A stretch of DNA of 62,195 bases from Methanomassiliicoccales archaeon (lineage in GTDB: Archaea; Thermoplasmatota; Thermoplasmata; Methanomassiliicoccales; UBA472): the NCBI GenBank assembly GCA_038740345.1, contig JAVYMA010000011.1, positions 1 through 62,195 on the forward strand, in the 5' to 3' direction. Every line of letters begins with the position of its first letter. Positions within the stretch are counted from its first letter, which is position 1. The notes beneath the pieces are model-generated. The model searched no databases, had not been told where the DNA came from, and saw nothing but the letters and a program-made list of their open reading frames with translations. Positions 7,302 to 37,992 of this stretch are shown here, piece after piece. The position numbers were made by a program, and so were the translations under genes.

Positions 7302-7351
7302 TTCTGGCTATTGGAGAAAGGCTATAATCGGCATAATGCATTCCAACACAG

Positions 7352-9180: not shown

Positions 9181-10254
9181 GTGATTACTTTGAAAGTAGC
9201 TATTCTTTCCTTGTTCGACTTCTCCGAGGTGAAAGGGGGTACTGAACTCTTCGTGAGCCATCTTCAAAAGGCTTTTCCTGAGTCGAGGATCATAACGTAT
9301 TCTTCCAGCCATTCTCTCACTTTCTTGCCTAATTTGAGCAAGCTCAACCTAGAATATCCACGCATGGGATGGGCCATAAGCCGAGAGTTTGCGAGATTGA
9401 ACAAGGAAGAAGAATTCGATCTTGTGATATGTAACGATTTAGCAGGATTGGGGCTGAATGTGCTTGAGCCTCAAATTCCAGCCATGCAAGTTTTCCATTA
9501 TACTTATAGAGGTTTTGCCGAAAGCGCATTGCGGGGCCTTCCAGGCTATGTGCCTTCAAAACATTTTTTACCTTGGTTCGAGAAGGCCACGGCGCACGGA
9601 AAGCGTATTGTTGCCGTAAGTCACAAAACAAGAAGAGAACTCGAAAGCCTATACGGTAGATCAGCTACAGTAATTGAGAATGCTGTTCCTCTTGATGTAT
9701 TCCACCCTTTACCCCAGGATGAATGCAGGGCTGAGTTAGGTATTAAATGGAAAGGTCCAATCGGGATTTTCGTTGGCCGTGCGGACCCATCTAAAGGGTT
9801 TGATGTCGTGAGACAAATAGCCAAATCACGAAAAGACATCAAAATCCTTTGCGTTACCGGAAGTAGGGTGGAGAAAGAAGATCGGGAAAAAATGATAGTA
9901 TTCCAAAAGGTTCCAAATGAAGAGATGCCTAAATATTATTCTTCTGCTGACTTTTTACTTTTTCCCTCCCGATATGAATCTTCGAGTTATATTACTATCG
10001 AAGCTTTGGCGTGTGATCTTCCAGTCGTAGCGTATCGCACCGGTGTCTTCGAAGATATGGATAATGATAAAGTAGGGGTAATTGTAGAGCGTGTTGATTA
10101 TGAGACCTTTATGAGGGCGATAGATCAAATTTTATCTATGGAAAGGGTTAAAACCAGAGCTTGCGCGGAAAAGAGGTTTTCAATGGAACGCTTCATAGCA
10201 GAATATAGAAAACTGGCACGTGAGATGTTAGAAAAAAATGTAATGACCGAATAA
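9181..10254 (+). CDS. Glycosyltransferase family 4
   Basis: A 357-residue GT-B fold glycosyltransferase that moves a sugar from a nucleotide donor, probably on the cytoplasmic membrane face. The N-terminal acceptor domain has VKGGTELFVSHL. The C-terminal donor domain has IGIFVGRADPSKGFDVV and the E-x7-E motif within RYESSSYITIEALACDLPV. The frame opens at GTG 9181; TTG 9190 (MKVAILSLF) is an alternative that matches family N-termini equally well. The neighbours are a deacetylase and an ATP-grasp enzyme. The sugar and acceptor are unknown. Confidence 0.9.
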   Translation: MITLKVAILSLFDFSEVKGGTELFVSHLQKAFPESRIITYSSSHSLTFLPNLSKLNLEYPRMGWAISREFARLNKEEEFDLVICNDLAGLGLNVLEPQIPAMQVFHYTYRGFAESALRGLPGYVPSKHFLPWFEKATAHGKRIVAVSHKTRRELESLYGRSATVIENAVPLDVFHPLPQDECRAELGIKWKGPIGIFVGRADPSKGFDVVRQIAKSRKDIKILCVTGSRVEKEDREKMIVFQKVPNEEMPKYYSSADFLLFPSRYESSSYITIEALACDLPVVAYRTGVFEDMDNDKVGVIVERVDYETFMRAIDQILSMERVKTRACAEKRFSMERFIAEYRKLAREMLEKNVMTE

Positions 10255-10289
10255 GTTGATTCGTTCGATCTCCATTCCATGCCAATACG

Positions 10290-11522
10290 CTATCCAACAC
10301 TGTCCTCATCGAACTCCATACGCATTGCATTCACTAAGGCTTTGATGATTTCTATTCCAAATCCAGCTCTTCTTAAGGCTGGTCTAATATCATCTTTCCA
10401 GAAATATGCGTAGCAATCACTGCCGAGCCAAGACTTCAACCAATTTACAGTATTGATCTCCTCACGTCTACGCAACCTAATGAATGAATCAATATCAGAT
10501 ATGCTATCCCACCACCTAATCCCTTCCTTGAAGACATGATTGCATGGTATATTTTGATTTGTCAAATCAGCATATTGATAGAGAGGTAAATTGATGCCGG
10601 CGATGGTAGACATGACGTTCTGCATCCAGGTTCGACAGTTCAATTCAATCAGCACGTATTCTTTGCGCTCAGGATCAAACTTGAATTCCACCGAGCCTAT
10701 TCCCTTGTAAGAGATGGACCTCAAGAATCTTTCTCCTAGCTCTTGGACATGATGATTTTTCCTGCTGATGGCTAAAGATGCGACGCCGAAATTGGGTGGC
10801 GCCTGCCTGGCCTTGATCCAAACAAAACTGGGGAATATTTGCCCCTCTTTCCCTACATACGCACAATACTGATACAAATCTTTTCCAGGCGGTAAAACAA
10901 TCGATTGTACCATGGCTTGTAAAGATGAGTTAAATACCCGAGACATCCTGGCACGCAATTCTTGTTTATTATTAACAATGAATCCTTTGTTGCCGAAGAC
11001 TCGATACCAAACATGAGAGTAAAAAGGCTTTACGAAAGCAGGAAAGGTTATTTCCTGCATATCATGCTCGAGTTCAGCCATGGATTTTGGGAATATTGTC
11101 CTGGGAATAGGTATGCCTGCTTTGCGCGCTAATTCATATTGCCTTTGCTTATTTAGGATGCATTCTGTAATATCCTCTGGCGGTACAGCAAAAACGAAAT
11201 TCTTCCCTAACTCGTGACGGTAACGCGAAACTAGTAGCACATATGCATCTGAGCATGCCATTATCACTGGTTTTTGATCAGCATTCCTTGAGGCTTTTAA
11301 AAGTGCCTCCACCGTTGCCTCAGGCTCAGATACCGGATCAGGTGTCAAAAGCGGTTCCACATACTTGGAAAACAATCCAGGAATAGAGGGACGGTAATCT
11401 ACCCCTATAACACGAATGCCGTTCCATCCTAAGCTCCTCGCCACCCCTAACCCATTAGCATCCATATTGAGCACGAAAACGCTACGGCTGGTGTCTAACT
11501 CAAGTTCCTCTACGGTATCCAT
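10290..11522 (-). CDS. ATP-grasp superfamily ligase
   Basis: A 410-residue protein with an N-terminal Rossmann-like pre-ATP-grasp segment (VFVLNMDANGLGVARSLG) and a central ATP-grasp domain. Visible elements are the ATP-binding strand FPAFVKPFYSH, the lid GKDLYQYCAYVG and the metal-binding GSVEFKFDPERKEYVLIELNCRTW near residue 270-290. Family members ligate a carboxylate to an amine or thiol through an acyl phosphate; those in polysaccharide loci are thought to add amino acids to glycans. The substrates here are not evident. ATG 11522 is needed to retain the first beta strand. A perfect 18-bp tandem repeat lies just upstream. Confidence 0.82.
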   Translation of the reverse strand: MDTVEELELDTSRSVFVLNMDANGLGVARSLGWNGIRVIGVDYRPSIPGLFSKYVEPLLTPDPVSEPEATVEALLKASRNADQKPVIMACSDAYVLLVSRYRHELGKNFVFAVPPEDITECILNKQRQYELARKAGIPIPRTIFPKSMAELEHDMQEITFPAFVKPFYSHVWYRVFGNKGFIVNNKQELRARMSRVFNSSLQAMVQSIVLPPGKDLYQYCAYVGKEGQIFPSFVWIKARQAPPNFGVASLAISRKNHHVQELGERFLRSISYKGIGSVEFKFDPERKEYVLIELNCRTWMQNVMSTIAGINLPLYQYADLTNQNIPCNHVFKEGIRWWDSISDIDSFIRLRRREEINTVNWLKSWLGSDCYAYFWKDDIRPALRRAGFGIEIIKALVNAMRMEFDEDSVG

Positions 11523-11540
11523 AGAATTCCTGCCGGTTAT

Positions 11541-11800: not shown

Positions 11801-14800
11801 ATGGGATGGATAAATAATGATTTCAAGGGGATGCACTTGAGAAAGAGAAGGGAGTTAAATTCGTTCAGGGATGAGTTCAAAAAGGAGGGGCACCTAAAAA
11901 TTCGTCCTTTGTCATTAAAAACAAGGCATCCAATCAAATGGTTTGCCATTTGCGGTTCTGTACCCTTTCGCAGATTTGCAAAAAGCGCTTTTTTAGCTCT
12001 TTTCTCGGTGCTAATTATTTTGTCCCTGAATCTCTTTCCCTGGGTTTCGGCTTCTGAATATATAATAACAACAAGAGAAGGTGAGCCATCACCCGGAACA
12101 ACGGAGGTTATTGGTGATGACATCACCATAGGCGTACGCTCAGCGAACCTGACCGTAATTGCCATGACAAACAAATACAAAGTGTTGACGGAGGAATACG
12201 CCATCATTGCGGACTATTCAACTAGCTTCATTGAGTATCAAATCAGACCTTATTTTACCACCGATTATATTCGATATAAAAGAGTGAACCCCCAATATGC
12301 GGGAGATGGAACCATTGACCAATATGGTAACGCTCTCGATGGCGTTGCCATGACCATAACCAATTGGGGACAAGAGGGAAATGTCGTATGGTTCATTGAG
12401 TCATGTGCAGAATTCAGCATCAAACAGTCTTTCAATATCTACCGTGATTATTTTGAGTTGGATGTAACTTATAAACCAGGCACCAAAAATGTGCTGACCA
12501 CATACTATATTGCTCTTTGTTCCTCAAGTGGTTCCATCTATAATCTCATGGCAGGTAAGATTAACCGTTATGTGCCAGGATTCCCAGAGGACACGCCAGC
12601 TAGTAACGGAATCGGAGGATACTATCCATCTTTCCAGATGTATGCACCTGCTTGCGATGTCCGTGTTCCCGGCGGCATATTGGGAGCTGAGTGGGGTTTT
12701 TCTGACACTGTTGCTTATATCTATTCGCCCATATGGTTGAGTGGTGGTGTTGGGGGTGCCTCAGCCTTTGCGATTAAATATTTTTCATATAATTCGATAG
12801 TGCCTAATATCGGTCTAGGGAAGGAGACTACGTTTCATGCATTCGTCCGACCTTATAAATACACCGATGGAAAGGAAAGGGGATATAATGTTGGCTACGC
12901 TCAATGGGTGGCGCCCAAGATCGCGTCTTATTGGGGCTCGTATGATGTCAACGCCTTCCCGTTAATGATTATGAGTACAGCCTCATGGAGTTCTTCATTT
13001 CGCTCTTGGGTTGAGAGCAGCCAGGTAAAAGTGGCGACATATTCAGAGAATATAAACCAAATCAATTGGAACTATAAAAGCGCTCAACAGTCTAATACCA
13101 TTCCAGATACGCCTGCTTATGTTCCCACCTCGTGGCAAATCTATACTTCCAGCGGTACCCCTATGGTTATGGCAGATGGCAGCGTGATGTGTAATCCTGT
13201 GAGTGGCCCATATACCACTGCTGGTACGTATCGGTGGCAACTAATAAACAACGATCCGCAACAGAGCTGGTGGACTAGTTCTCGCGGAGTCTTTTGGGAT
13301 GAGATAAATCTCTGGACGGCAGAAAACCGTTTGAAAAACGATTACCAGCAGCGCCCTGAATTTATTTACGATGGGTATCTAAAGTTGATGAAAGAAAGCA
13401 AGACTAGCGGTTATTGGGACTATATCATAGCCAACTCATTCAGCGCCTTACTTCATTTATCCATGGTGGCCGATCTCAACATCATTGAAGGATATGCTCC
13501 ATCAAGCACCTATGGTTCAGATCTTACCAAGCATGTCTGGTCCACGATGAATTTTGTCAACAACATACCTGTTCAATATAGGCCTAACATTTTAGTGTAT
13601 CAGAATTACGCCACTGGAAATTCCTACGATCAAGAAGACGTCTATTCCATTCTTTTCGGAGCGGCTAAATATTCCTTCAATGTAGCTTTGCAATCCTATG
13701 ACTCCTATGATTCACAGATGCATAATCTGCGTATGGCAGAGGAAATGTTCAAGGCTATGGGTTGTACGCGCGATTCTGATGTTAGGACAGTAACGGTGGA
13801 CACATTAGATATGGCTTATACCACCACCAAAATAACGTCTGCAGATATGTTGGTAATGAAAGGCTCAGGCTCGCCCACCATTACTCATTCTGGTAGCCCT
13901 AACATCTTTAAATTGACGAATCTTCGCTCGAGTTCAACAGCTTTCAAAATCGCTTTCACCACTTCTAATCTTTACCAATCGGGTAGTAATGTCCAGACCA
14001 GTGGAGCCATGGTTTTTACAACCGACGGAAAGGGCACATATCAAGGAACGATTGGCGCGGAGAAAACCGGGGAAATCGTCAAGAACAATAAAGTCCAAGT
14101 AAATCAAAAGGGAACAGGCAGCATTGGAGTGAGTCTTGTTTCTCTCTCTTCCAGCTCAGCTGAGATGAACTTAGCATCCACTGGTGGCACCACGGCATTC
14201 ACACTGAGGGGTATGCAAGCCAATACCGCCTTCGACATTATTGTGAATGGGGTCGTGGTAAACACCGTAACATCCAGCGCCGATGGCACATTGAGCTTCG
14301 AGAGAGCATTCGGGACAGCAGATGTCTTAAAGGTGAATGTACACACCCAGGTAAATGATACGACCAAGCCTACCATATTGTCCTGCACTCCAGTCAATGG
14401 CGCTACTGGGATATCCATTGGAAGCACAGTCACATTGACCTTCAGTGAAGACATGAATAAGACCTCTGTGGAAGAAGTGTTTGCCCTGACTCTGGCGGGA
14501 AGTAAGGTGAGTGGGAAATTTTCATGGGCCTCGGGCTCAGCAATGATCTTTACTCCCGCTAGTACTCTTTCATACTCTTCGACTTATACTGTAAATGTGG
14601 GCACGGGGGCAAAGGATCTGGCCGGGAATGGGCTGGCAGCGACCTTCACCTCTCAATTCACCACAGTTCCAGTTCCAGATACCATAAAGCCTAACGTTAT
14701 TTCCTGTTCACCTTCGAACGGTGATGTTGACGTTAGCGTGAGTGTTCAAGTAATAGTGGAGTTCAGCGAGGATATGGACAAAACTTCTGTGGAAGGGTCA

Positions 14801-17179
14801 TTCTCTCTTAAAAATAGTTCAAGTACTGTTATGGGAACATTCTATTGGATTAACTCTCGAACCGTGCGATTCATTCCAAGTTCATCCCTCTCTTATTACA
14901 CTATTTATACCATAAACGTGGGCACGGGGGCAAAGGATCTGGCCGGGAATGGGCTGGCAACGACCTTCACCTCTCAATTCACGACTATTTCAAATTCCCC
15001 GCCACCACCTGACCCCACTCCCCCAGGAGCTCCTACTAATCTCCTTGCTCAAGGAGGTGTGCGACAAATAACGCTAAGTTGGAACCCTCCTAGTTCTGAT
15101 GGTGGATCCACCATAACTGGTTATAGGATTTACAGGGCAACTTCTGCCTCAGGACCGTTCACGCTAATAGCCTCTATATCTGCCATCAGCTTCTACCAGA
15201 ACACCGGTCTGCCTAACGGCGCCACTTATTACTATAGAGTTAGCGCAGTGAATTCTGCTGGAGAGGGGGCACTTTCCACTTATGCTTTTGCAAAGACAGC
15301 AGAGCCCCCTGCCGCTCCCATAGATTTGTCGGCCACCCCTTATCTAGGCAAGGTGAGCATTCGATGGTCTGCACCCTCGAGCGATGGCGGGGCACCAATT
15401 ATAAATTATAAGATATATCGAGGCACCGTAAGCGGAGCCGCTTCTTATTATATTACAGTGGGATCAACCTACTTTGATGATGTCAACGTCACCAATGGCG
15501 TGACTTATTATTATGTGGTCGCAGCCGTGAACGAAGCTGGAACAGGACCTAAATCCATTGAGGTTTGGGCGAAACCCGGAGCGGTGCCAACAGAGCCTAT
15601 TTTCGTTATGGGCACATCAGGAGACCGTCAGATTCTTCTGACCTGGTCACCACCTCAATCGGATGGGGGACTCGCGATTCAATGGTATAAGATTTATAGA
15701 GGAAAGACGGAGAATTCAATTTCACACATTGCTAATACCACCTCACTATCCTATCTGGACCTGGGATTGGAGAATGGGGTTACCTATTTCTACCGTGTAA
15801 GCGCTGTGAATGGGGCGGGGGAAGGCGCGCTTTCCAAGGTCGCCAAGTGCAGACCAATGACCACGCCTTCAGCGCCTTCGGAGGTTCAGGCAATAGGAGG
15901 AAATGGTGAGATAAAAATTAGCTGGTCAGCACCAATAGATGATGGAGGAAGCTCCATAATGGGATACTGTGTATATCGCTCGGCGATTTATGGTGGTTGG
16001 AGCTTCCTGGCGTTTGTTGAAGATGGTTTAGAATATTTCGATCGTGGACTGGCAAATAATGCCACATATTTTTATTTGATCAGAGCTTTGAATGGCGCCG
16101 GAGAAGGTGAAGCTTCACAAGTGGTACAGGCAACAACGAGTTGTCAACCCCCTTCTTCACCTCTTTCACTAACGGCGATATCTCGAGATAGAGTGATTGA
16201 ATTGCAATGGACACCGCCGCAAGAAAGCGGTGGGAGCCCTATAATTGGCTATGTAATTTATAGGGGCATGGAATCAGAACCTATGGAGATCCTGGCTAAA
16301 GTCCAGACCACCAAATTTATCGATACCAATCTTACCAATGGGAGAGAGTACCATTATTCAGTATCGGCCTTCAATTATGCCTATGAAGGGGTTCCGACTT
16401 CCTCGGTGAGCGCTATCCCTAGGAATGTGCCCGGAGCGCCTGTCGAATTTTCGATAAGTATCCATCGCAATTCTGTTATCATGAGTTGGTCACAACCTGA
16501 GGAAGACAATGGCTCGGCCATACTGGGATATCGAATCTATGAAAAAATCGATGGTGTTTGGATCCTGACAAGGGAGTTGGGGGCAAATGTCACTGAATGC
16601 ATTTTGGAATTCTTAGCTCTTGGAAGTTTTCATGAGTACCAACTTCGCGCTTTCAACGAAGTGGGAGAAGGGACAGGAGTGGGAGCCATTATCCGCGTGC
16701 CCGATGTGCCCAATAAACCAGAAATTCTCCTTGTGAAGGGGGGATGGAAGAATGTTACCCTCATATGGTCAGAGCCATCTAATGATGGTGGGGCACCGAT
16801 TTTGGAATATGTAGTTTACCGCGCTATAGAGCTGGGTCCATTCCAGATCGTGGCCATCCTCTCCTCCCATCAATTCAAATTCATCGACGCGGGGCTCATG
16901 CCCAATGTCACCTATCGTTATATCGTTGCGGCTATGAATGAGATGGGCACAGGAATTCCTTCGGAAATCGCTCAGGCAACAGTCCTATCCGATCCTTCGC
17001 TTGGGGAAGGGCGCGCCATGGAAAAGAGTTGGGTTGGAGAGTATGGAGGTGCTATCATCGGTGGTGGTGGTGTGATCCTTCTCACGATCCTGATCATCGG
17101 CATATGGCTGATTCGGGCCTCTAAAAGGGACTCTAAGAATGACGAGGATAAAGGAGTGCAGCTCAAGAGAAAAAGATGA
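11801..17179 (+). CDS. Giant surface protein: unrecognised N-terminal domain, 2 Big_5, 7 FN3 repeats, C-terminal anchor
   Basis: A 1792-residue protein. A basic N-terminal tail leads to a hydrophobic export signal at about 60-83 ending WVSA. Residues of about 86-850 form a domain I do not recognise; the stretch GVFWDEINLWTAENRL and its flanks recall glycoside-hydrolase-like barrels, but no catalytic assignment is possible. Two Big_5 (SbsA-like Ig) domains with IxxSCxPxNG starts follow from about 853 and 960. Seven fibronectin III domains run from about 1075 to 1735, each with a W-x-x-P-x-x-D/S-G-G core and a YRVSAVN-like strand. A transmembrane helix at about 1747-1770 and a basic tail complete it. 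ATG 11801 is the longest start; ATG 11831 is an alternative. It is a paralogue of the gene at 18456 and is probably a cell-surface or S-layer-associated protein. Confidence 0.88.
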   Translation: MGWINNDFKGMHLRKRRELNSFRDEFKKEGHLKIRPLSLKTRHPIKWFAICGSVPFRRFAKSAFLALFSVLIILSLNLFPWVSASEYIITTREGEPSPGTTEVIGDDITIGVRSANLTVIAMTNKYKVLTEEYAIIADYSTSFIEYQIRPYFTTDYIRYKRVNPQYAGDGTIDQYGNALDGVAMTITNWGQEGNVVWFIESCAEFSIKQSFNIYRDYFELDVTYKPGTKNVLTTYYIALCSSSGSIYNLMAGKINRYVPGFPEDTPASNGIGGYYPSFQMYAPACDVRVPGGILGAEWGFSDTVAYIYSPIWLSGGVGGASAFAIKYFSYNSIVPNIGLGKETTFHAFVRPYKYTDGKERGYNVGYAQWVAPKIASYWGSYDVNAFPLMIMSTASWSSSFRSWVESSQVKVATYSENINQINWNYKSAQQSNTIPDTPAYVPTSWQIYTSSGTPMVMADGSVMCNPVSGPYTTAGTYRWQLINNDPQQSWWTSSRGVFWDEINLWTAENRLKNDYQQRPEFIYDGYLKLMKESKTSGYWDYIIANSFSALLHLSMVADLNIIEGYAPSSTYGSDLTKHVWSTMNFVNNIPVQYRPNILVYQNYATGNSYDQEDVYSILFGAAKYSFNVALQSYDSYDSQMHNLRMAEEMFKAMGCTRDSDVRTVTVDTLDMAYTTTKITSADMLVMKGSGSPTITHSGSPNIFKLTNLRSSSTAFKIAFTTSNLYQSGSNVQTSGAMVFTTDGKGTYQGTIGAEKTGEIVKNNKVQVNQKGTGSIGVSLVSLSSSSAEMNLASTGGTTAFTLRGMQANTAFDIIVNGVVVNTVTSSADGTLSFERAFGTADVLKVNVHTQVNDTTKPTILSCTPVNGATGISIGSTVTLTFSEDMNKTSVEEVFALTLAGSKVSGKFSWASGSAMIFTPASTLSYSSTYTVNVGTGAKDLAGNGLAATFTSQFTTVPVPDTIKPNVISCSPSNGDVDVSVSVQVIVEFSEDMDKTSVEGSFSLKNSSSTVMGTFYWINSRTVRFIPSSSLSYYTIYTINVGTGAKDLAGNGLATTFTSQFTTISNSPPPPDPTPPGAPTNLLAQGGVRQITLSWNPPSSDGGSTITGYRIYRATSASGPFTLIASISAISFYQNTGLPNGATYYYRVSAVNSAGEGALSTYAFAKTAEPPAAPIDLSATPYLGKVSIRWSAPSSDGGAPIINYKIYRGTVSGAASYYITVGSTYFDDVNVTNGVTYYYVVAAVNEAGTGPKSIEVWAKPGAVPTEPIFVMGTSGDRQILLTWSPPQSDGGLAIQWYKIYRGKTENSISHIANTTSLSYLDLGLENGVTYFYRVSAVNGAGEGALSKVAKCRPMTTPSAPSEVQAIGGNGEIKISWSAPIDDGGSSIMGYCVYRSAIYGGWSFLAFVEDGLEYFDRGLANNATYFYLIRALNGAGEGEASQVVQATTSCQPPSSPLSLTAISRDRVIELQWTPPQESGGSPIIGYVIYRGMESEPMEILAKVQTTKFIDTNLTNGREYHYSVSAFNYAYEGVPTSSVSAIPRNVPGAPVEFSISIHRNSVIMSWSQPEEDNGSAILGYRIYEKIDGVWILTRELGANVTECILEFLALGSFHEYQLRAFNEVGEGTGVGAIIRVPDVPNKPEILLVKGGWKNVTLIWSEPSNDGGAPILEYVVYRAIELGPFQIVAILSSHQFKFIDAGLMPNVTYRYIVAAMNEMGTGIPSEIAQATVLSDPSLGEGRAMEKSWVGEYGGAIIGGGGVILLTILIIGIWLIRASKRDSKNDEDKGVQLKRKR
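14597..14982 (+). repeat. 65-bp near-identical direct repeat between two Big_5 domains
   Basis: Bases 14597-14661 and 14918-14982, 321 bp apart, differ at one position by eye (GCAGCGAC versus GCAACGAC). Both encode the final strands of the adjacent Big_5 domains (GTGAKDLAGNGLA through FTSQFT). The surrounding parts of the two domains are much more diverged, which points to recent gene conversion or local duplication. Confidence 0.8.
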
Positions 17180-17182
17180 CCG

Positions 17183-18091
17183 TCATCTCCAGCCGATGCC
17201 CGTTCCGAAAAGTTCGAAGGCCGCGCCAACCAAGCTTAGAATCTTAGGCAGTTTATCGGTCTCTACTGCAACTTCTGAGCTTGGAGATATGGTCCTCGTC
17301 GACCTTCGCGTTGCCGCTAAATCGATTTGATGAGCCATGTATGAGAAGAAGCTCACCTTTTCAGGGAAATTCTTGTGCACCAAATGAGCGTTGTTCCTGC
17401 CATACATATACCTAAGGCGCAGATACCATTTCAAGCGATCCTTGCGATAGGAGCCTTCGCACCATTCATGCCTCACGCCTGCCTTTTCCACATAACGTAT
17501 TTCATGACCTGTGCGGAGAACGCGCAGGCAGGCATCTGCTTCGTCCTGATGGTAGCGGAAGTAGGGGTCAAAGCCTCCGATTCTTCGCAGGATCTCGGTA
17601 CGAAAGGACATATTACAACCTACCATTATAGGAAGCAAACCCGTCAGATCATGCCCACGAGATGCGTCGAACCAATCACCATAATAGTTTATGGCGCTCC
17701 TCCCTATGGCCAAGGTACCATCCATGTAGTAGACTGGACCTCCTACTCCGCCCACTTTAGGGGAATCGTAACCTGAGATCAAGCTGATCATCCATTCTGG
17801 ACAAGGGATTGCATCGTCATCGATGAAACAAACTACCTTGCCCCTCGCTTTCTCCATTCCGAGATTTCTAGCGATAGATATACCTTCGAGTTTGGGTTGA
17901 GTTACCAATTTTATTTTCTCTGCTCTTTCCAATTTCTCTAAGAATTCTCTGGTACCATCTGAGGATGGGCCGTCAACTACCACTATTTCACCTGGTGGTG
18001 GGGAAAGCTTCTCAATTGCTTGCAAGCATCTCTGAAGCCATTTCTTGCGATTGTAGGTGCATATCACGATTGAGACTTCCTCAGGATTCAG
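17183..18091 (-). CDS. Glycosyltransferase family 2
   Basis: A GT-A fold transferase of about 300 residues. The donor-binding elements are ICTYNRKKWLQRCL, VVDGPSSDGTREFL, the DxD-type VVCFIDDDAIPCPEW and the acceptor-side GGFDPYFRYHQDEADACLR; the C-terminus has no membrane anchor. The first canonical start is GTG 18067, which would cut the opening beta strand. In-frame codons upstream encode NPEEVSI, the expected beginning, and a CTG at 18089-18091 lies five bases after a GGAG. I therefore place the start at CTG, with an in-frame TGA a few codons further up. The gene lies between the two giant FN3 genes, converging with the first, and may glycosylate a surface component. Confidence 0.85.
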   Translation of the reverse strand: MNPEEVSIVICTYNRKKWLQRCLQAIEKLSPPPGEIVVVDGPSSDGTREFLEKLERAEKIKLVTQPKLEGISIARNLGMEKARGKVVCFIDDDAIPCPEWMISLISGYDSPKVGGVGGPVYYMDGTLAIGRSAINYYGDWFDASRGHDLTGLLPIMVGCNMSFRTEILRRIGGFDPYFRYHQDEADACLRVLRTGHEIRYVEKAGVRHEWCEGSYRKDRLKWYLRLRYMYGRNNAHLVHKNFPEKVSFFSYMAHQIDLAATRRSTRTISPSSEVAVETDKLPKILSLVGAAFELFGTGIGWR

Positions 18092-18311
18092 ATTATCTCC
18101 TCAGCTCTTCATGTGCATCCCTATGAGAAATGAAAATCATTTCGGAGACCCTATCATTTACTTCGATATTATCTATTCGAAAAATGATAATGACGCTCTT
18201 TCATTTATCGAAGGGCTTGTAAAAATTTTCCTGGCTGGATATAGGAATTCAATATAAAAATAAGTGAATTTTCAAAAAGGCATTATCAACCCTGATATCT
18301 AGGTGATTCAA
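18092..18311. other. AT-rich intergenic stretch
   Basis: About 220 bases between the GT2 start and the promoter of the second giant gene. I see no ORF with a ribosome-binding site, only AT-rich sequence with short ATTCGAAA and GATAAT motifs that may include the GT2 promoter. Confidence 0.4.
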
Positions 18312-18449
18312 TTTATAATGGAAATTATGCGGTAAGGTTTCTAGATAGGAAGCAGAGGGTGAAAGGACTGAGATGACAATAAGGTCCTAACCTCTAATGG
18401 GGAGACGCTTCCCCAGCAACATAGGTCTTTGCACAGAGCCAGGAAGAGG
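18312..18449 (+). promoter_or_regulatory. TATA box and structured leader of the second giant gene
   Basis: TTTATAAT at 18312-18319 would place transcription near 18341, leaving about 110 bases of leader. The leader can form a nested stem (AGAGG 18354-18358 with CCTCT 18391-18395, and AGGAC 18364-18368 with GTCCT 18384-18388). This is followed by a six-pair hairpin, TGGGGA 18398-18403 with TCCCCA 18410-18415. A folded leader on a large surface-protein gene could stabilise the mRNA or regulate translation. No known riboswitch consensus was recognised. Confidence 0.45.
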
Positions 18450-18455
18450 ATGAAA

Positions 18456-21400
18456 ATGATTGGGAGCGATACGATTAACGAAGCAAAAGCACCGAGCTCT
18501 TCCCTTAAAGAGGATAATGAGTCGTTCTGCTTCGAAACCAAAGGTAATCAAGAAGTGACAAGGAGCACCCAATCACCGCTGTCATTTTTCCGCCAGGCAT
18601 TGGCCCGTGGCGCTAGACTGCTCAGTGGGAAGGAGCCGGAGAAGGCCAGACTTTTCAAGAAGGGAATAAAAGTCCTGGACCGTTCGGCGTCTATACGCCT
18701 GGCAAGATTCTTTTCCATCCTTTTCACCTTCATTTTCCTTTTGGGCCCATGCGCCCCCCTCTTCATGGCTATCCCCGCAACGGCTGCATTAGATAGCGCT
18801 GGCAGTACAGGCACCGCATTGGAATTTGTCCCCAATTCAGAGGATTTCACACTTGGAGCCTTATCCTCTAACCTTACTATAACAGTATCAGGGACCCTGA
18901 TCACTGTTTGGACTGAAGAATATGCAATAAAAGTAGATTTTTCTACCTCTTTTGTGGATTACCGCATACAACCCTATTTCTGCACTGACTTCATTCGCTA
19001 CCGGCGTGTTAATCCTCAATACGCTGGTGATGGTACTTACGATGCAAATGGCAACGCCCTTGATTCTGTTTCTATGACCATATCATCCTGGGGGCGCTCA
19101 GGCAACAACGTATGGTTCATCGAGTCCTGTCCTGAGTTCTCACTAAATCAGTCTTTCCGCGTCTATCGTGATTATTTCGAGCTAGATGTCACCTACAAAC
19201 CGGGAACTAAGAAAGTCTTGACCACATATTTCATAGGATTGTACTCCGCCTCCAATTCACTTTATAGCCTGGTGAATACCGCTACTGGACGCTTCAATCG
19301 ATATATACCAGGCTATGCAGAAGATACTCCAGATGGGTATGGCTTTGGAGGATGGTATCCATCCTTCAAGATGTTCGCACCCGCCTGCGACCTCCGCGTA
19401 CCAGGGAAGAATTTAGGGGTGGAATGGGGATATAACGAAACAGTAGCCTATCTGTATTCTCCAGTATGGATGAAGGATTGCGGAACGGGCGGAGCTTCGG
19501 TCATGGCGTTGAAGTTCTCCTCCAAGAATTCTGTCGTTCCCAATGTAGCCTTGGGAACTGAGGAGACTTTCCACATGTTCTGTCGACCCTACAAATATTC
19601 GGACGGCAAGCAGAGAGGCTATAATGTGGGATACGCTCAATGGGTGGCGCCCAAGATAGCTTCTGCCTGGGGGAATCATAACACACCCATCTTCCCTCTA
19701 GCCGTAATGGATCTGGGCTCGTGGACGAGTACATTCCGTTCCTACGTGGAGAACAGCGAAATCAAGCTAGCTACCTATTCCAAGAACCCTAATCAAATAA
19801 ATTGGAACTACAAATCCTCACAGATCTCCAATACGAACCCAGGAGATGCTGCCAACGTTCCCTACTCATGGCAGATAATCACTTCCTCAGGAGCTCCGAT
19901 GCTTACCAATGACGGAACCAAGGTCATATGCAATCCTGTGAGCGGTCCTTATAATACACCAGGTACATACAGATGGCAACTCATAAACAACGACCCCTAC
20001 ATGGCCTGGTGGACAGGTACCAAAGGAGTATTCTGGGATGAGATGAATCTTTGGACCGCGGAGAATCGCTTGAAGAATGATTATCAGCAGAGATCCGATT
20101 TCCTTTTGGACGGCTATTTACGCTTGGTGCAAGAGTCCTATGCCTCTGGCTATTGGGACTATGTAATCGCTAATCCCTTCACAGGCCTGCTGCATCTCAG
20201 CATTGCCGCAGATATTTGCCTTCTCGAGGGTTACGAGCCTTCAAGCATCTATGGTACCGATCTGGTAAAGCATGTTCATTCCACTATGAACTTCGTGAAC
20301 ATGATTCCAGAAACCTATAGACCAAGAATACTTGTCTATCAGAATTATGCCACGGGCAATACTAATGATCAATTGGATGTCTATTCTGTGCTATTCGGGG
20401 CTGCCAAATACGGTTTCCATGTCACTCTTCTCTCGTATGATTCCTACGATTCGCAGCTGCGTTATCTGCGCATGGCAGAGGAAATGTTCAAAGCCATGGG
20501 TTGTACGCGCGATTCTGACGTCAGGACAGTAACGGTGGACACATTGGATCTAGCCTTGTCGAATTCCATCACAACCGCCGCACAGATGCTTGTGACTAAA
20601 GGCGCTGGCTCGGCTACGATTACAGCGACTGCGGATTTGTCGTCCTTCACCATCACCAATCTTCACGCCACCTCAAACACCTTCGACCTCAGGGTACCGA
20701 GCGGATCCTACTATATTCCGGGCCCTGGAGTCACCAAACTGTCTGATATGACCTACTCGGCGGATGGCTACGCCAAATTCTCGGGTAGAATCGATCCTGA
20801 GAAGACCTCCAAGCTCAATCGAGTCGATGATATCAAGGTATATCAGCGCTTAACCGGCAGCGCCACCATTAGCTTGTCTTCACTTGGCCCCAATGCGGAT
20901 CTGACCGTCAGCTCTACTGGAGGGAGTACGGAAATAATCCTTCGTGGATATGCCCCTGGCAAGAGCTATGATATATTTGTGAATTCCGTGAAGGTGGACA
21001 CGAAGATTGCAGCACAGGATGGAAGCATATCCTTCACCCGCAGCTATGGAAGCAACGATAGAGTTACGACCTCATTGTCCACTGCGGCTGACGTTTATCC
21101 TCCTCATGTCGTGTCCTGTTCACCCTCGCCTGGAGCCACTTCGGTATCCATAACCACGAAGATCAGGATAGTTTTCAACGAAAGCATGGATATCAATAGC
21201 GCGCAATCCGCCTTTTCCCTCTCCGGGACCTCGAATGTTGCTGGCAGCTTCATTTGGGAGGATGAGAATCGGGTGGTGACATTCTCTCCCTCAACCACGC
21301 TGTCTTATGCCACCACCTATACTGTCCAGATCAGCGTTGCCGCTCGTGACGTAGCGGGCAATGCCCTGTCCTCTTCTTATATCAGCACATTCACCACCGA

Positions 21401-24400
21401 AGCGCAACCAACCTTAATTGTCGTCCCCTCAGCACCCTTGTCATTGATGGCAAGCGGTGGGGTAAAATGCGCATTTTTATCCTGGTCCCCTCCCGCCAAT
21501 GATGGTGGGGCTTCGTTATCAGGATATAAGCTGTACCGAGCGATCAACACGGGTGATGCAGGATATGCACCAGTGGCCACGTTGGGAAATGTGAACAGTT
21601 ACACAGATGTGGGGCTATCCGATGGCACAGTCTATTATTACAAGGTTTCTGCCACAAACTCAGCGGGGGAAGGAGCTTTATCGGCAGAGGTTTCCTGTGT
21701 TACCTTTGCCCTGCCTTCAGAGCCGCTCTCTCTTTCCGGCGTGGGAGGAGTACGCAGCGTGACCCTTAGCTGGTCCCCACCCGCCTCTGACGGCGGAACG
21801 CCAATAACGGGATATCGCCTCTATCGTGGCACATCCACGACTTCTCAATCATTGATCGCAACGCTGGGCCCAGTTCTCAGCTTTGTCGATGCAAGCCTAT
21901 CTAACGGAACGACCTATTATTACAGGGTGAGCGCGGTTAATGCGGTGGGAGAAGGGGGATCGAGCCCTATAGCCTCCACCACCACCTCCGTGCTTGTCCC
22001 TTCTGCCCCTCGGGGACTGATAGCCTCCGCCTCCAAGGACAGCATCACTTTGACTTGGACGGCTCCGACCTCAGATGGTGGTTCTAAGGTAACAGGATAC
22101 AGGATTTACAGAGGTGCGTCTTCAGAAAATCTAGCCCTTATAGCCTCGATATCCAACGATACATATTATATGGATTCGGGTCTAGTGAACGGACAAATAT
22201 ATTATTATCGCGTCTCGGCCATCAATGTAGCTGGGGAAGGCTCTCTATCAGAAGTAGTTGCGGCAGCAACCTCAGCTCAGGTGCCATCAGCTCCCCTTTC
22301 CTTAATTGCTCTGGCAGGGGATGGATGTGCCACTTTATCATGGTCTTCTCCGCTCGTCTCCGGCGGCTCACCCCTGCTTGGATACAGATTATATAGAGCA
22401 GTAGGGACAGGAAGTATGTCGCTTATCAGGGTACTCGAAGACGTTTACTTCATGGACTCCAACCTGACCAACGGCCAGATCTATCGCTACACCGTAACAG
22501 CGCTGAATTCAGCAGGAGAAAGTGAGCCATCTAATGAGGTGTCAGTGTTACCGGTAGGACCTCCCAGCCAACCATTAGAACTTCAAGCCATACCGGGCAA
22601 TTCTGTATGCACACTTAGCTGGTCTATTCCGGAGAATGATGGCGGCGCGGCTATCATTGGTTATAGAATCTATCGTGGACTTTCACCGAATAGCCTTTCT
22701 ATGGTGGCTACAGTGGGTCAAGCTCTGACCTTTGTAGACGAGGGTCTTACGAACGGTCAGCAGGTATATTATGCCGTGGCGGCGGTTAATGAAGTGGGAG
22801 TAGGAGCATTGTCGCCCCAGGTCACCTGTGTCCCAGGCTTTGTGCCCTCCTCCCCCAGGAGCCTTACTGCAATAGGTGCGGATTCAAAGGTGGAGCTGTC
22901 TTGGAGCGCCCCGCTATTCGATAACGGTTTCAGCATAGAGGGATATGTCGTATACAGAGGGACCTCGCCCGATGAGCTGATTCCCTATGCCTCGCTAGGC
23001 AACGTACTTCAATTCACGGATTCGAGCGTTATCAATGGCGTCGAATATCATTACCGAATCACCGCCCGCAACGCCAAGGGTGAGAGTGGCTTTTCTCCCC
23101 TAGCATCTGCGCGCCCAGCAACTGTACCCTCTAGCCCCCAGCTACTATTTGCTTCTGCGGGATTGGGGACCATATCGCTTAGCTGGCAGCCTCCCCTGAC
23201 AGATGGTGGCGATTCTATAATTGGTTACGTAATCTTCCGCGGTTCGACGGCCGATGAATTGGTGCAGATAGCCATGGTCACCTCTTCATCGTATCAGGAC
23301 TCTGGATTAGGGCCAGGCATCATGTTCTACTATGAGGTCAGGGCCTTCAATGGGCAAGGCCTAGGTGCGGGTACTAAGGCATGGGCAAGAACATATGATT
23401 TGCCTTCCACACCTTTGAACCTCCAGGCTGTCGCGGACAAGGATAAGATCGCTCTCAGTTGGTCGGTTCCGAACTATAATGGTGGAACAGCAGTTCTGAA
23501 TTATAAGATCTACAGAGGAGCCGCTCCTGGAAATCTGATTTGTGTGGCGCTGACCAACGAAACCTACTATCTTGATACAGGTCTGACGCCAGGAATTGAA
23601 TATTATTACGCAGTATCAGCAGTGAATGCGGTGGGAGAGGGGATGAGGTGCGAAGTAGCTAGTGCTAGGCTGCCGGCCAGCGTCCCTTCATCTCCGACAT
23701 GGATAGAAGCAACTACATCCGGCGCTATGATTTCTTTGAGATGGGCTGCTCCGACCTCTGATGGAGGCTCGATTATCGTTTCATATCGCCTTTACCGAGG
23801 ACAGGGTTCAGAACCGATGATGTGGCTGACAGATGTAAACACTCCATCCTATATCGATGGACAAGTATCGCCCGGAATATCATATTCTTACAAGGTATCT
23901 GCTTTGAACGCCGTAGGCGAAGGTCCTGCGTCACCTGAGGTAAAGGTGCAGCTCTTGTTGCCACCCTCTCCTCCTGGTAACTTGGTGGCGACGAAAGGTA
24001 AAAATTCCGTAATGCTGACGTGGGAAAAACCTGAGCAGGATGGGGGAAGCGAAAGAATAACCTATGTAGTCTATCGCGGGACTTCACCATCTCAATTGAC
24101 CAAACTTACCACCGTAAGCTCTGGGCTGAGCTTCACTGACACCGCTCTGCCGAAGAGCGACTTCGTCTATTACCGCGTTTCATCGCTAAATGCTGTAGGG
24201 GAGAGCGCGCTCTCCAACTTGGCATCGGTTTCCCTTAGCAAGAAACCTGCTCCTCCAAAAGGCTTGACGGTCACTGCGCAAGATGGAAAAGTGCTTCTAA
24301 GTTGGCAGTCTCCAGAATATGATGTTGGAGAGGAAGTACTAGGCTATACCATCTATCGTCAGAGCTCAGGAGAAGAAATGACGATGATAGCCAGCACCAA

Positions 24401-25121
24401 TGGCACCTCTTATCTGGATGAGGGGCTGATAAACGGCCGTTATTATACATATGCAGTGGCTACCATAACGCCTATGGGTATAGGGGAGGCGCTTGAAGGT
24501 CCTCCTGTAAAGCCTTATGGACTGCCCGATCCGCCGCTTTCACTCACCTATGTCCCTTACGATGGGATGGTAGTGCTCAAATGGGATGCTCCAGATTACG
24601 ATGGTGGAGCGGATATAGAGGCTTATAACATCTACCTCAAATCTAAGAGCGGGACAATATTAATCGGGCAAGTTACAGGGCTAATGAACAGCTTTGCAGT
24701 TCACGATGTGCCGGATGATGAACAAGTTAATTTCATGGTTACAGCCGTGAATGCCGCGGGAGAGAGTTCCGCGGCCATAGTCCAAGCTATGCCCAAAAGC
24801 GCGCTAGATGTGAAGACTGGTATATCTGATGGAGTTATACTGGGAGCCAGTCTCCCGGTCCTATTGGGAGCTGTGGCTTTGGCTGGGGCTGCTCTTGGTG
24901 CGGGTACTTGGGGTTGGCATCGCGGACAAACAGGCACGGCGAGAAAAAAGCCCTTGCAGAAAAGTTCTGTTTCTCCCGCGGAAGTAGTTAAGATGGTGCA
25001 TGTGCGCCGTCCTCAGAGCCAGAACATCACTAAAAGGGCTTCTACACCCACCCAGAATATGGATCTCCTGTCCTTCGAGAGAACATTAAAAGATCTAGAG
25101 GTTACAGAACGCATTTGGTAG
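18456..25121 (+). CDS. Giant surface protein: unrecognised N-terminal domain, 1 Big_5, 12 FN3 repeats, C-terminal anchor
   Basis: A protein of about 2220 residues, paralogous to the product at 11801. After a polar N-terminal tail comes an export signal (FFSILFTFIFLLGPCAPLF). The same unrecognised domain of about 740 residues follows (shared YNVGYAQWVAPKIAS, GVFWDEMNLWTAENRL, MAEEMFKAMGCTRDSDVRTV). One Big_5 domain starts about 890 codons from 18429, and twelve fibronectin III domains fill roughly 1000-2125. A transmembrane segment (LGASLPVLLGAVALAGAALG) and a basic cytoplasmic tail of about 65 residues close it. The frame opens at TTG 18429; ATG 18456 is preferred because AGAGG lies six bases upstream, and ATG 18450 is also possible. 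The FN3 array is longer than in the paralogue, indicating repeat expansion. Probably a surface adhesin or S-layer-like protein. Confidence 0.88.
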   Translation: MIGSDTINEAKAPSSSLKEDNESFCFETKGNQEVTRSTQSPLSFFRQALARGARLLSGKEPEKARLFKKGIKVLDRSASIRLARFFSILFTFIFLLGPCAPLFMAIPATAALDSAGSTGTALEFVPNSEDFTLGALSSNLTITVSGTLITVWTEEYAIKVDFSTSFVDYRIQPYFCTDFIRYRRVNPQYAGDGTYDANGNALDSVSMTISSWGRSGNNVWFIESCPEFSLNQSFRVYRDYFELDVTYKPGTKKVLTTYFIGLYSASNSLYSLVNTATGRFNRYIPGYAEDTPDGYGFGGWYPSFKMFAPACDLRVPGKNLGVEWGYNETVAYLYSPVWMKDCGTGGASVMALKFSSKNSVVPNVALGTEETFHMFCRPYKYSDGKQRGYNVGYAQWVAPKIASAWGNHNTPIFPLAVMDLGSWTSTFRSYVENSEIKLATYSKNPNQINWNYKSSQISNTNPGDAANVPYSWQIITSSGAPMLTNDGTKVICNPVSGPYNTPGTYRWQLINNDPYMAWWTGTKGVFWDEMNLWTAENRLKNDYQQRSDFLLDGYLRLVQESYASGYWDYVIANPFTGLLHLSIAADICLLEGYEPSSIYGTDLVKHVHSTMNFVNMIPETYRPRILVYQNYATGNTNDQLDVYSVLFGAAKYGFHVTLLSYDSYDSQLRYLRMAEEMFKAMGCTRDSDVRTVTVDTLDLALSNSITTAAQMLVTKGAGSATITATADLSSFTITNLHATSNTFDLRVPSGSYYIPGPGVTKLSDMTYSADGYAKFSGRIDPEKTSKLNRVDDIKVYQRLTGSATISLSSLGPNADLTVSSTGGSTEIILRGYAPGKSYDIFVNSVKVDTKIAAQDGSISFTRSYGSNDRVTTSLSTAADVYPPHVVSCSPSPGATSVSITTKIRIVFNESMDINSAQSAFSLSGTSNVAGSFIWEDENRVVTFSPSTTLSYATTYTVQISVAARDVAGNALSSSYISTFTTEAQPTLIVVPSAPLSLMASGGVKCAFLSWSPPANDGGASLSGYKLYRAINTGDAGYAPVATLGNVNSYTDVGLSDGTVYYYKVSATNSAGEGALSAEVSCVTFALPSEPLSLSGVGGVRSVTLSWSPPASDGGTPITGYRLYRGTSTTSQSLIATLGPVLSFVDASLSNGTTYYYRVSAVNAVGEGGSSPIASTTTSVLVPSAPRGLIASASKDSITLTWTAPTSDGGSKVTGYRIYRGASSENLALIASISNDTYYMDSGLVNGQIYYYRVSAINVAGEGSLSEVVAAATSAQVPSAPLSLIALAGDGCATLSWSSPLVSGGSPLLGYRLYRAVGTGSMSLIRVLEDVYFMDSNLTNGQIYRYTVTALNSAGESEPSNEVSVLPVGPPSQPLELQAIPGNSVCTLSWSIPENDGGAAIIGYRIYRGLSPNSLSMVATVGQALTFVDEGLTNGQQVYYAVAAVNEVGVGALSPQVTCVPGFVPSSPRSLTAIGADSKVELSWSAPLFDNGFSIEGYVVYRGTSPDELIPYASLGNVLQFTDSSVINGVEYHYRITARNAKGESGFSPLASARPATVPSSPQLLFASAGLGTISLSWQPPLTDGGDSIIGYVIFRGSTADELVQIAMVTSSSYQDSGLGPGIMFYYEVRAFNGQGLGAGTKAWARTYDLPSTPLNLQAVADKDKIALSWSVPNYNGGTAVLNYKIYRGAAPGNLICVALTNETYYLDTGLTPGIEYYYAVSAVNAVGEGMRCEVASARLPASVPSSPTWIEATTSGAMISLRWAAPTSDGGSIIVSYRLYRGQGSEPMMWLTDVNTPSYIDGQVSPGISYSYKVSALNAVGEGPASPEVKVQLLLPPSPPGNLVATKGKNSVMLTWEKPEQDGGSERITYVVYRGTSPSQLTKLTTVSSGLSFTDTALPKSDFVYYRVSSLNAVGESALSNLASVSLSKKPAPPKGLTVTAQDGKVLLSWQSPEYDVGEEVLGYTIYRQSSGEEMTMIASTNGTSYLDEGLINGRYYTYAVATITPMGIGEALEGPPVKPYGLPDPPLSLTYVPYDGMVVLKWDAPDYDGGADIEAYNIYLKSKSGTILIGQVTGLMNSFAVHDVPDDEQVNFMVTAVNAAGESSAAIVQAMPKSALDVKTGISDGVILGASLPVLLGAVALAGAALGAGTWGWHRGQTGTARKKPLQKSSVSPAEVVKMVHVRRPQSQNITKRASTPTQNMDLLSFERTLKDLEVTERIW

Positions 25122-25122: not shown

Positions 25123-26070
25123 TCATACGACATCGACGATCAGCCAGAGCTCGTGCATCTGGTCATCAAACTGTAAGATGAACAACAATCGGTGTTGGCC
25201 GGGCTCGAGGAAGCGAAATAGGAATTGACGAGAGAAGGTCTGCCCATCGAGGACAGTCTCGTCAGCGCAAAACGCCTTGCTGGGGAGCAAATCATGAACT
25301 GTTGACCAATTCAAGCCGGAGTAATCGGTGAACTTATCCTCTTCCAACACTCCTAGAGTGAGATTGTACTTCTCAGCTTCTCTCATGTGATTGACAAAGG
25401 TTATAATTACCGTCGCGTTCTCTCCCACCCTCAGGCTTTGCGGCAGTGTGCCGAGCGACCCATCCGGTCCAGTTATGTAAAACTCAGTATAGGTTTCAGG
25501 TGGTATACCTTTTTGTAGTGTTCCCACGCTTAGCAATATGGCGACTAACAGGCCGGCCAAGGCTAACAGCAGGACCGACTTGTCATAATTGTTGATTGCT
25601 CCTCGACCCAACTTCAATTCAAGTATCAGCTCAAACTCTTCTTCCTCAGGCACCATGAATCTGCGAAATATTGCAGCTGCGGACAGTACTATGTTGAGCA
25701 CCAGAACTTCGGTCAATACAAAGCTTGAGGTGAAACCCACAGGCGACCAGGCCAAAGAGATACCTCCCATGGCGAAAAGGACCAGACTCAGGATTATGGA
25801 AGCCATAAATCTCTCCAAAAGGGATATCTGGCCCACATCTAGACTCACATTCGATGAATCCTTGGATGAGCCTTTGCCAGGAAAGATAGCTGAGGTCAAT
25901 GCCCAACCGGGGAGGAAGAAAACGCTGAGAAAGGCCAAGAGATCCAGAATTGGCGAACGCCATCCTAAGATAGAAAGCATGACTGCCAGGGTGGATATGG
26001 TGCAGACAAGAGCCAAATCATATGGCCGTCCAGGTGCGGCCAGGACCAACCTCAGCTTCCTTCCTCCCAA
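25123..26070 (-). CDS. DUF1616 family membrane protein
   Basis: A 315-residue protein of the archaeal DUF1616 family. Four or more membrane helices occupy the N-terminal 180 residues (for example LALVCTISTLAVMLSILGW and ILSLVLFAMGGISLAW). An extracytoplasmic beta-rich domain follows, with the family hallmark TEFYITGPDGSLG and the NEW3/CARDB-like GENATVIITFVNH. The function is unknown, but family members are common in archaeal surface-glycan loci. The stop is one base from that of the convergent giant FN3 gene. It is the last gene of a five-gene minus-strand set beginning at 30843. Confidence 0.87.
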   Translation of the reverse strand: MGGRKLRLVLAAPGRPYDLALVCTISTLAVMLSILGWRSPILDLLAFLSVFFLPGWALTSAIFPGKGSSKDSSNVSLDVGQISLLERFMASIILSLVLFAMGGISLAWSPVGFTSSFVLTEVLVLNIVLSAAAIFRRFMVPEEEEFELILELKLGRGAINNYDKSVLLLALAGLLVAILLSVGTLQKGIPPETYTEFYITGPDGSLGTLPQSLRVGENATVIITFVNHMREAEKYNLTLGVLEEDKFTDYSGLNWSTVHDLLPSKAFCADETVLDGQTFSRQFLFRFLEPGQHRLLFILQFDDQMHELWLIVDVV

Positions 26071-26118: not shown

Positions 26119-26811
26119 CTATTCTTCTTTCGCTCGATCTTGTTTAATAAATTGTGCCATTAGGTGCCAGCTTCTCTCACCATAGTCCTTGTCGAAATCG
26201 ACCTGCTCCGCTTTGCGGAAAAAAGAGGATAAGCGGTGAAGCCTTAAAGAATCTGTAAACATTAGCACATATCCAAGCAAAGGGAACAATAGCAAGCCTC
26301 CGTAACGCAAACGAACAAGCTTATAAGATTCGCCCAGGAGCCTCTGCAACTCCGCAAGAGAATAATGCTTATGCCAGGGGGCATATCCTCTATTCTTGAT
26401 CACTTTCCTACCAGCTGCGAAGATCAGGGAATTTTGAGCGTCTATGTGTGCGAACGTTCCTTTGTTAGGTACACTAACTATCAATCTACCGCCCGGTCGC
26501 AGGACTCGATCAATCTCTTTGACTGTCATTTCCTCACAAGGCACATGCTCCAGCACATCGAGCATGACAACCATATCGAACGCTGAGTCGCTGAAAGGCA
26601 TGGCCTCGCCCGAAGTCATTATGAACTCTGCGCCTGGGGCTTCGCTCTTGGCTTTGACCAGAGAGAATCGATCCACATCTACCCCAATTACATCGTGCCC
26701 TGAGTCGCTAGCGAGCTTAGTGAACAGCCCTTCAGCACATCCCAAGTCCAAAATCTTTGCCGCACCTTCCAACCAGGTCAGGGCTACCCCTGCTCTTCCA
26801 TGTTTCTCCAT
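26119..26811 (-). CDS. Class I SAM-dependent methyltransferase
   Basis: A 230-residue protein with the Methyltransf_11 fold. Motif I is ILDLGCAEGLFTKLA, the acidic end of strand 2 is VIGVDVDRFS, motif II is FDMVVMLDVLEHV, and VLRPGGRLIVSVPNKG is the post-II loop. The C-terminal 80 residues contain a hydrophobic stretch (LLLFPLLGYVLMF) that may help membrane association. Position among glycosyltransferases suggests methylation of a glycan or lipid intermediate, but the substrate is not known. The next gene upstream (GT4) ends about 50 bases away on the same strand. Confidence 0.9.
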   Translation of the reverse strand: MEKHGRAGVALTWLEGAAKILDLGCAEGLFTKLASDSGHDVIGVDVDRFSLVKAKSEAPGAEFIMTSGEAMPFSDSAFDMVVMLDVLEHVPCEEMTVKEIDRVLRPGGRLIVSVPNKGTFAHIDAQNSLIFAAGRKVIKNRGYAPWHKHYSLAELQRLLGESYKLVRLRYGGLLLFPLLGYVLMFTDSLRLHRLSSFFRKAEQVDFDKDYGERSWHLMAQFIKQDRAKEE

Positions 26812-31640: not shown

Positions 31641-31696
31641 GAGAATCAATACGTATTATCTTATTTGATAATGGACAATAACTAATATTGCACACT

Positions 31697-31799
31697 CTTA
31701 TATACAAACATTTATTAAGGTCAAAAAGAGAATCCCTATATTACTCGGGTTCGTGGCCCGAACGCAGAGCAATCTAGCCTCGTTAGGGGGGAGGCGGGA
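31697..31799 (+). promoter_or_regulatory. TATA box and hairpin-rich leader before the DPM1-like gene
   Basis: CTTATATAC at 31697-31705 predicts transcription from about 31727. The leader holds a hairpin at 31745-31761 (TCGGG/CCCGA, or alternatively GTTCG/CGAAC) and a second at 31777-31795 (GCCTC/GAGGC). The 3-prime arm of the second hairpin contains the GGAGG that would serve the small ORF at 31800. This arrangement could make translation depend on unfolding of the hairpin. Confidence 0.45.
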
Positions 31800-32728: not shown

Positions 32729-32739
32729 CTCGTGGTGAA

Positions 32740-35381: not shown

Positions 35382-35392
35382 GTGAGTAGATC

Positions 35393-37961: not shown

Positions 37962-37992
37962 TTTAGTATTACTTTAATGGGAGCTGCTGCGC

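Follow-up and report, generated by a model that had tools for sequence, protein, structure and literature searches.

Two Stalked Surface Proteins around a Glycosyltransferase Gene

The stretch of DNA analyzed here (the window) comprises 62,195 nucleotides of contig JAVYMA010000011.1 (C11) from a Methanomassiliicoccales archaeon, the genome of which (assembly GCA_038740345.1) amounts to 1.79 Mb in 47 contigs. It carries two paralogous genes, X1 and X2 (1792 and 2230 codons), lying on either side of a minus-strand gene for a glycosyltransferase (GT) of family GT2. Both encode giant surface proteins sharing an N-terminal head of ~740 residues, which is 60% identical between the two and which we consider a candidate glycosidase-type enzyme encoded within a cassette for a surface glycan. 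The start codon of X2 is uncertain, since the listed reading frame opens with TTG and an ATG follows in frame seven codons further on.

Each protein has a long basic N-terminus preceding a hydrophobic export segment (residues 64-82 in X1, 97-115 in X2), and a single C-terminal transmembrane segment (1753-1771 and 2136-2154) with a cytoplasmic tail beyond it. Pfam recognizes seven FN3 and two Big_5 domains in X1, twelve FN3 domains and one Big_5 domain in X2. FN3 and bacterial immunoglobulin (Ig)-like domains above cut-off, an export signal, and a membrane anchor are thus all present, as in FN3/Ig-like surface proteins. The initial annotation of the window had described just such a pair around the GT2 gene, with Big_5 modules, arrays of 7 and 12 FN3 units, and a C-terminal anchor, and the reading frames, export segments, domain counts, and transmembrane predictions all bear it out. 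The basic tail that it attributed to both proteins fits the short tail of X1, but only the beginning of the ~76-residue tail of X2, which closes with an acidic/leucine motif found also in relatives from two other genomes (G028 and G031). The end of the X2 tail (tail at window 24891-25118, closing motif FERTLKDLE) resembles those encoded at loci L064 (FERGLKELE) and L035 (FERGLRELE), and this similarity suggests a common cytoplasmic partner; more speculatively, the acidic/leucine ends of X2 and of the G028 and G031 proteins might be the surface that such partners contact.

The Head Is a Sequence Family of Its Own with a Glycosidase-Type Predicted Fold

Neither head matches a glycoside hydrolase (GH) catalytic-domain model in Pfam or NCBIfam up to E 1, nor do 27 relatives in Pfam up to E 10; a search of Protein Data Bank sequences returned no match for X1, and the family profile gave only weak OspA-like matches of its C-terminal strands. 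Relatives of the head occur in 22 of 147 Methanomassiliicoccales genomes, spread over three families of the order, and in one Thermoplasmata metagenome-assembled genome (MAG) of another order (L053). Almost all relatives with names belong to Methanomassiliicoccales MAGs, and in the search for relatives the genome itself falls among these. Beyond Thermoplasmata the distribution was probed by exact short peptide patterns alone, and remote relatives elsewhere may therefore have been missed. A mobile or viral origin was rejected, as plasmid, phage, and viral collections contained no relative. The family comes in several architectures: the head alone (727-832 residues), the head with a small β domain and a transmembrane segment (~1040-1080 residues), and the head with an FN3 stalk and a transmembrane segment (~2000 residues). 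FN3 domains range from 0 to 12 and stalkless members are common. Given this variation, the head is the conserved unit and the stalk optional. In several MAGs (L050, with X at 9698-13074; L034; L044) a frameshift breaks the X gene in two, as a result of either sequencing error or decay.

The whole X1 head was modeled with AlphaFold2 from 28 sequences (predicted local distance difference test score, pLDDT, 78; predicted template modeling score, pTM, 0.78). The model comprises, with approximate limits, a β-supersandwich (residues 34-275), a (β/α)8 barrel (276-570), and two β-sandwiches (582-668 and 672-765); a separate model of the X2 barrel (pLDDT 81, pTM 0.84) agrees with it. The supposed single domain of 740 residues hence resolves into at least three folded units. 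Foldseek retrieved with the whole head mainly glycosidases of like build (GH31 with E 4.6e-9, GH97, and a GH36-type galactosaminidase). With VIA, the sandwich plus barrel aligned with GH129 (5wzq; Z 11.6, root-mean-square deviation [rmsd] 5.1, 424 residues), GH97 (5hq4; Z 11.4, rmsd 4.9, 394 residues), and GH36 (6gwg; Z 10.8, rmsd 4.3, 374 residues). The barrel alone also placed glycosidases in the lead (GH30 with Z 11.3, GH168 with 11.0, GH191 with 10.5, and GH36 with 10.1). A search of a viral fold library produced no useful match.

The domain order of the GH31/GH36/GH97/GH129 type is thus present, with alignments of 374-436 residues at Z 10.8-11.6, a match of fold and not of family, since neither sequence nor profile links the head significantly to any named family. 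As the whole head matches glycosidases and the barrel alone is unspecific, a glycosidase-type assembly is well supported, while membership of any particular family is not. By its model, then, the head has a fold of known kind, a glycosidase-type supersandwich, TIM barrel, and β-sandwich. The initial annotation was right to call the sequence family unrecognised, given that Pfam, NCBIfam, and structure-database sequences do not explain the head. Its suggestion of a new, possibly barrel-like fold for a surface enzyme or glycan-binding protein holds for the barrel and probably for the enzyme, but not for novelty of fold, and a confident match that would name the family did not emerge from the fold search, the fold type being known and no GH family assignable.

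A Predicted Active Site

Residues of the head are numbered as in P0001, and invariance was judged in every alignment row covering the position. On the barrel strands, D416 (end of β4), N461 (end of β5), E479 (end of β6), Q517 and Y519 (β7), and Y549 (β8) are invariant; so are N333, Q336, W339, Y341, K342, and S343 after β2, forming the motif N-x2-Q-x2-W-x-Y-K-S, and R394, D401, W406, W407, N425, D430, Y431, H468, and D474. The putative dyad of D416 and E479 and its polar shell persist also in stand-alone copies. Both X1 and X2 carry the motif GVFWDE-[IM]-NLWTAENRL, of which D416 is the likely functional residue because it is conserved and E417 is not. Spacing between the Asp and the Glu is 63 residues in each protein.

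By analogy with two groups of characterized enzymes, D416 may be a nucleophile and E479 an acid/base. In GH36 (clan GH-D) the catalytic acids lie at the ends of β4 and β6, where the models place D416 and E479 by strand position; in TmGalA they are Asp327 and Asp387, 60 residues apart (PMC5132143), so that the second residue is Asp in GH36 and Glu in X. Domain order and fold are likewise common to X and the GH31/GH36/GH97/GH129 enzymes, from which X differs in lacking detectable sequence similarity and in being archaeal, membrane-anchored on an FN3 stalk, and encoded in a cassette.

The galactosaminidases of GH114, GH135, GH166, and GH191 (Ega3, Sph3, the PelA hydrolase, TM1410) pair an Asp nucleophile with a Glu acid/base, and the 63 residues in X, compared by sequence spacing, fall within the 58-69 of GH114/166/191 (PMC12054363). 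The motif is also a look-alike, GVFWDExN in X against GVYLDxxDAYEY. Membership of GH114/GH191, which this motif and Foldseek had brought up, was nevertheless rejected on an hhalign probability of ~0.1% and the lack of any PF03537 match in the genome carrying X. These barrels are not known to include an N-terminal supersandwich. At five GH114-family loci in other genomes of the phylum (L114, L115, L116, L117, L118), the PF03537-type barrel is apparently circularly permuted: the QNG...DGVGQE half (strands 5-8) precedes the YMSIGEAEDYR...GFDGVYLD half (strands 1-4). In L108-L113 the halves follow the usual order.

A Conserved Cassette for a Surface Glycan

Neighboring genes, labeled by BLASTP to the proteins of the window, follow an order common across families: SAICAR synthetase - GNAT - PIG-L - GT4a - (ATP-grasp) - X - GT2a - (X2) - DUF1616, then (methyltransferase) - GT4b - GT4c - nine-transmembrane protein - YdjM-like - GT2b - GT4d, and finally B12/radical SAM - GT4e - B12/radical SAM - GNAT (table 1). 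Of the 15 genomes with a visible flank, 14 have GT4a upstream of X; GT2a or DUF1616 lies downstream, and the arrangement spans three families of the order. In L053, from another order, X also lies near glycosyltransferases. The make-up of the cassette, as read from its sequences, points to the building of a polysaccharide or glycan for the cell surface. The initial annotation, correct about surface location, had overlooked this strongest clue, namely the fixed place of the genes within a surface-glycan cassette across the order.

The nine-transmembrane protein, counted from strong matches (E below 1e-30), co-occurs with X: among 41 relatives both are found in 12, one alone in 1 and 2, and neither in 26 (Fisher P 1.4e-7, a significance inflated by kinship of the genomes). 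It has no Pfam match, orthologues included, and may serve the cassette as a polymerase, a ligase, or a GT-C enzyme. A MATE flippase gene (4754-6265) was rejected as a cassette member, having no equivalent in other neighborhoods. In two relatives the neighborhood of DUF1616 includes a CPBP-type membrane protease (L064:18046-18852, L068:14777-15664) that weakly resembles the sorting-signal protease MrtS and has no counterpart in the window. Farther along the window (50519-54844, plus strand), a 1441-residue soluble protein shows long helical, coiled-coil-like repeats and a β-rich C-terminus, with no significant Pfam match.

Table 1. Features of X1, X2, and the surrounding cassette, in positions of the window.
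Feature	Position	Strand	Basis
GNAT (Acetyltransf_6)	7352..8389	+	
PIG-L deacetylase family	8386..9147	-	
GT4a glycosyltransferase	9181..10254	+	
ATP-grasp protein, only in window, G002, and G037	10290..11522	-	
X1, giant surface protein, 1792 residues: head, 2 Big_5, 7 FN3, transmembrane segment, basic tail	11801..17179	+	Open reading frame list, Pfam, transmembrane prediction
X1 hydrophobic export segment, followed by VSA-type cleavage site (site read from sequence)	11990..12046	+	
X1 N-terminal β-supersandwich, galactose-mutarotase-like	12152..12877	+	Model, structure alignment
X1 (β/α)8 barrel, predicted catalytic unit	12878..13762	+	Model, conservation
X1 D416 codon, end of β4 (GVFWD), predicted nucleophile	13298..13300	+	
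X1 E479 codon, end of β6 (DLNIIEG), predicted acid/base	13487..13489	+	
X1 head, two C-terminal β-sandwiches	13796..14347	+	Model
X1 two Big_5 modules, outer limits approximate	14357..14995	+	Pfam
X1 FN3 array, 7 domains	15029..16978	+	Genome search, Pfam
X1 C-terminal transmembrane segment, basic tail after it	17057..17113	+	
GT2a glycosyltransferase between X1 and X2, conserved cassette member	17183..18067	-	
X2, giant surface protein, 2230 residues: head, Big_5, 12 FN3, transmembrane segment, tail	18429..25121	+	Open reading frame list, Pfam, transmembrane prediction
X2 hydrophobic export segment	18717..18773	+	
X2 (β/α)8 barrel	19620..20495	+	Model
X2 predicted nucleophile Asp, equivalent of D416	20037..20039	+	
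X2 predicted acid/base Glu, equivalent of E479	20226..20228	+	
X2 Big_5 module	21093..21398	+	Pfam
X2 FN3 array, outer limits approximate; 12 domains by hmmscan	21474..24218	+	Genome search
X2 C-terminal transmembrane segment, then ~76-residue tail ending in LLSFERTLKDLEVTERIW	24834..24890	+	
DUF1616 membrane protein	25123..26070	-	
Methyltransferase	26119..26811	-	
GT4b and GT4c, two GT4-like genes (type read from sequence alone)	26862..29176	-	
556-residue membrane protein, ~9 transmembrane segments	29173..30843	-	
YdjM-like, GT2b, GT4d, B12/radical SAM, GT-like GT4e, B12/radical SAM, GNAT-like	30957..39141	+	

History of the Two Copies

In the phylogenetic tree, one group holds X1, its G001 and G002 orthologues, and copies from a sister genus; X2 groups with a copy from G002 (G002_C87). 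The duplication thus predates the split between the genus and its sister genus and, for this reason, X1 and X2 are not being homogenized as wholes; whole-gene homogenization by conversion was rejected on the same tree. A short tract (13733-13804) is 93% identical between the two over 60 nt, against 60% overall, and here matching synonymous codons cluster most strongly (permutation P 0.009-0.03); an initial test, based on the longest stretch of identical codons, had given P 0.06. Within this tract, X1 shares 88% identity with X2 but 69% with its own orthologue in G002. The near-identical tract that had initially hinted at gene conversion is therefore real, and a short conversion event is plausible if not compelling, with weak to modest support (P 0.01-0.03) and confined to the tract.

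Functional Interpretation

In functional terms, what would a stalked, glycosidase-like head be doing in a cassette that builds a glycan? The explanation that we favor, with a probability of about 0.55, is that X1 and X2 represent a new glycosidase-like family whose members, carried on stalks, trim or remodel the surface glycan of their own cell. The head probably acts on the coat because its gene sits in the conserved cassette for that coat. After export it would be kept outside the membrane by the C-terminal helix and raised by the Big_5 and FN3 domains, which would form a stalk whose length varies. In this explanation the barrel very probably hydrolyzes or transglycosylates a glycosidic bond by a retaining mechanism, D416 acting as nucleophile and E479 as acid/base. 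Architecture, family, cassette, and invariance of the residues are observed and the fold is predicted; catalysis as such, like the retaining mechanism, the substrate, and the role of the stalk, is inferred. Since the likely substrate is the polysaccharide or glycan built by the surrounding cassette, head activity would set the length, release, or remodeling of the coat, a part that PelA and PslG play for bacterial exopolysaccharides. Operons for the latter often hold a gene for a glycosidase or lyase, and the hydrolase activity of PelA yields secreted, low-molecular-weight Pel (PMC9894940). The analogy is one of function: in both cases an exported glycosidase-type protein is encoded within a glycan biosynthesis cluster (PMC9894940), whereas X has another domain architecture, an archaeal host, and a glycosidase activity that is presumptive.

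Several observations weigh against this explanation. The head family has no sequence match to any GH family; the whole-head superpositions of Foldseek are loose (TM-score 0.2-0.3, rmsd 17-22 Å), its best E value for the barrel alone is only 0.02 (top match GH191, 9ep5), and TIM barrels that are not glycosidases (aldolase, pyruvate kinase) reach Z 9.2-9.9, near the best glycosidase at 11.3. The loops surrounding β2-β3 are poorly modeled, at an alignment depth of 27-28 rows. One genome, G026, keeps the cassette without X, GT4a directly adjoining GT2a (L071, ~5900-8100), and X is therefore dispensable for the cassette; conversely, G007, G029, and G032 have extra copies of X outside it.

Some of this evidence would also suit a lectin, the head having kept a glycosidase fold for binding without catalysis and mooring the cassette polysaccharide to the surface, with the FN3 stalk as spacer. 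The Z-scores single out no active GH family, and stalked FN3/Ig proteins are mostly adhesive, those of free-living Methanomassiliicoccales being classed as adhesion factors (PMC7883539). The free-living clade of the order is richer in FN3 and Ig-like domains, as would suit a stalk fitted to its environment, and the proteins resemble X in their arrays, surface anchor, and archaeal order; that study counts domains only, and its passages on them do not describe the conserved head and its cassette. We nonetheless regard a pure lectin as unlikely, for the putative D416/E479 dyad and its dense polar shell are invariant at 40-60% overall identity, even in FN3-less stand-alone copies, when such a dyad tends to be lost in binding-only modules, and stalkless members (727-832 residues) are frequent. 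The solo copies outside the cassette, together with relatives from fen, wetland-type, and other sources likely to meet foreign glycans (habitats partly deduced), would agree with a surface enzyme or adhesin for plant, microbial, or host polysaccharides, its cassette location being historical; this seems quite improbable, considering that in three families the gene has stayed between GT4a and GT2a/DUF1616, that the L053 gene also lies near glycosyltransferases, and that growth on polysaccharides is not known for methylotrophic methanogens. A transglycosidase that moves the cassette polysaccharide onto a surface acceptor, the FN3-stalked protein coupling synthesis to attachment, would draw on the ability of retaining glycosidases to transglycosylate, on the GH31-type transglycosylases among the best fold matches, and on acidic/leucine tail ends that could touch the synthesis machinery in X2, G028, and G031; with nothing in the sequence to tell a transferase from a hydrolase, we give it little credence.

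Returning to the favored explanation of a head that trims the cell's own glycan, a more ambitious version, which we find doubtful, would make X a new archaeal family of stalk-mounted enzymes and a standing component of a surface-polysaccharide machine specific to Methanomassiliicoccales. Such an enzyme would cut or transfer the glycan as it is being made, its cytoplasmic tail touching the synthesis apparatus, in an archaeal, single-membrane counterpart of PelA-type maturation. Independently of this, the X family is real, conserved, and previously unnamed, and constitutes a candidate new glycoside hydrolase family with a fold type already known. Little was found in this analysis on the surface glycans of the methylotrophic methanogens that live in animal guts, wetlands, and digesters. 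With its dedicated glycosidase-like surface protein, the conserved cassette offers a testable handle on the coat of these organisms.

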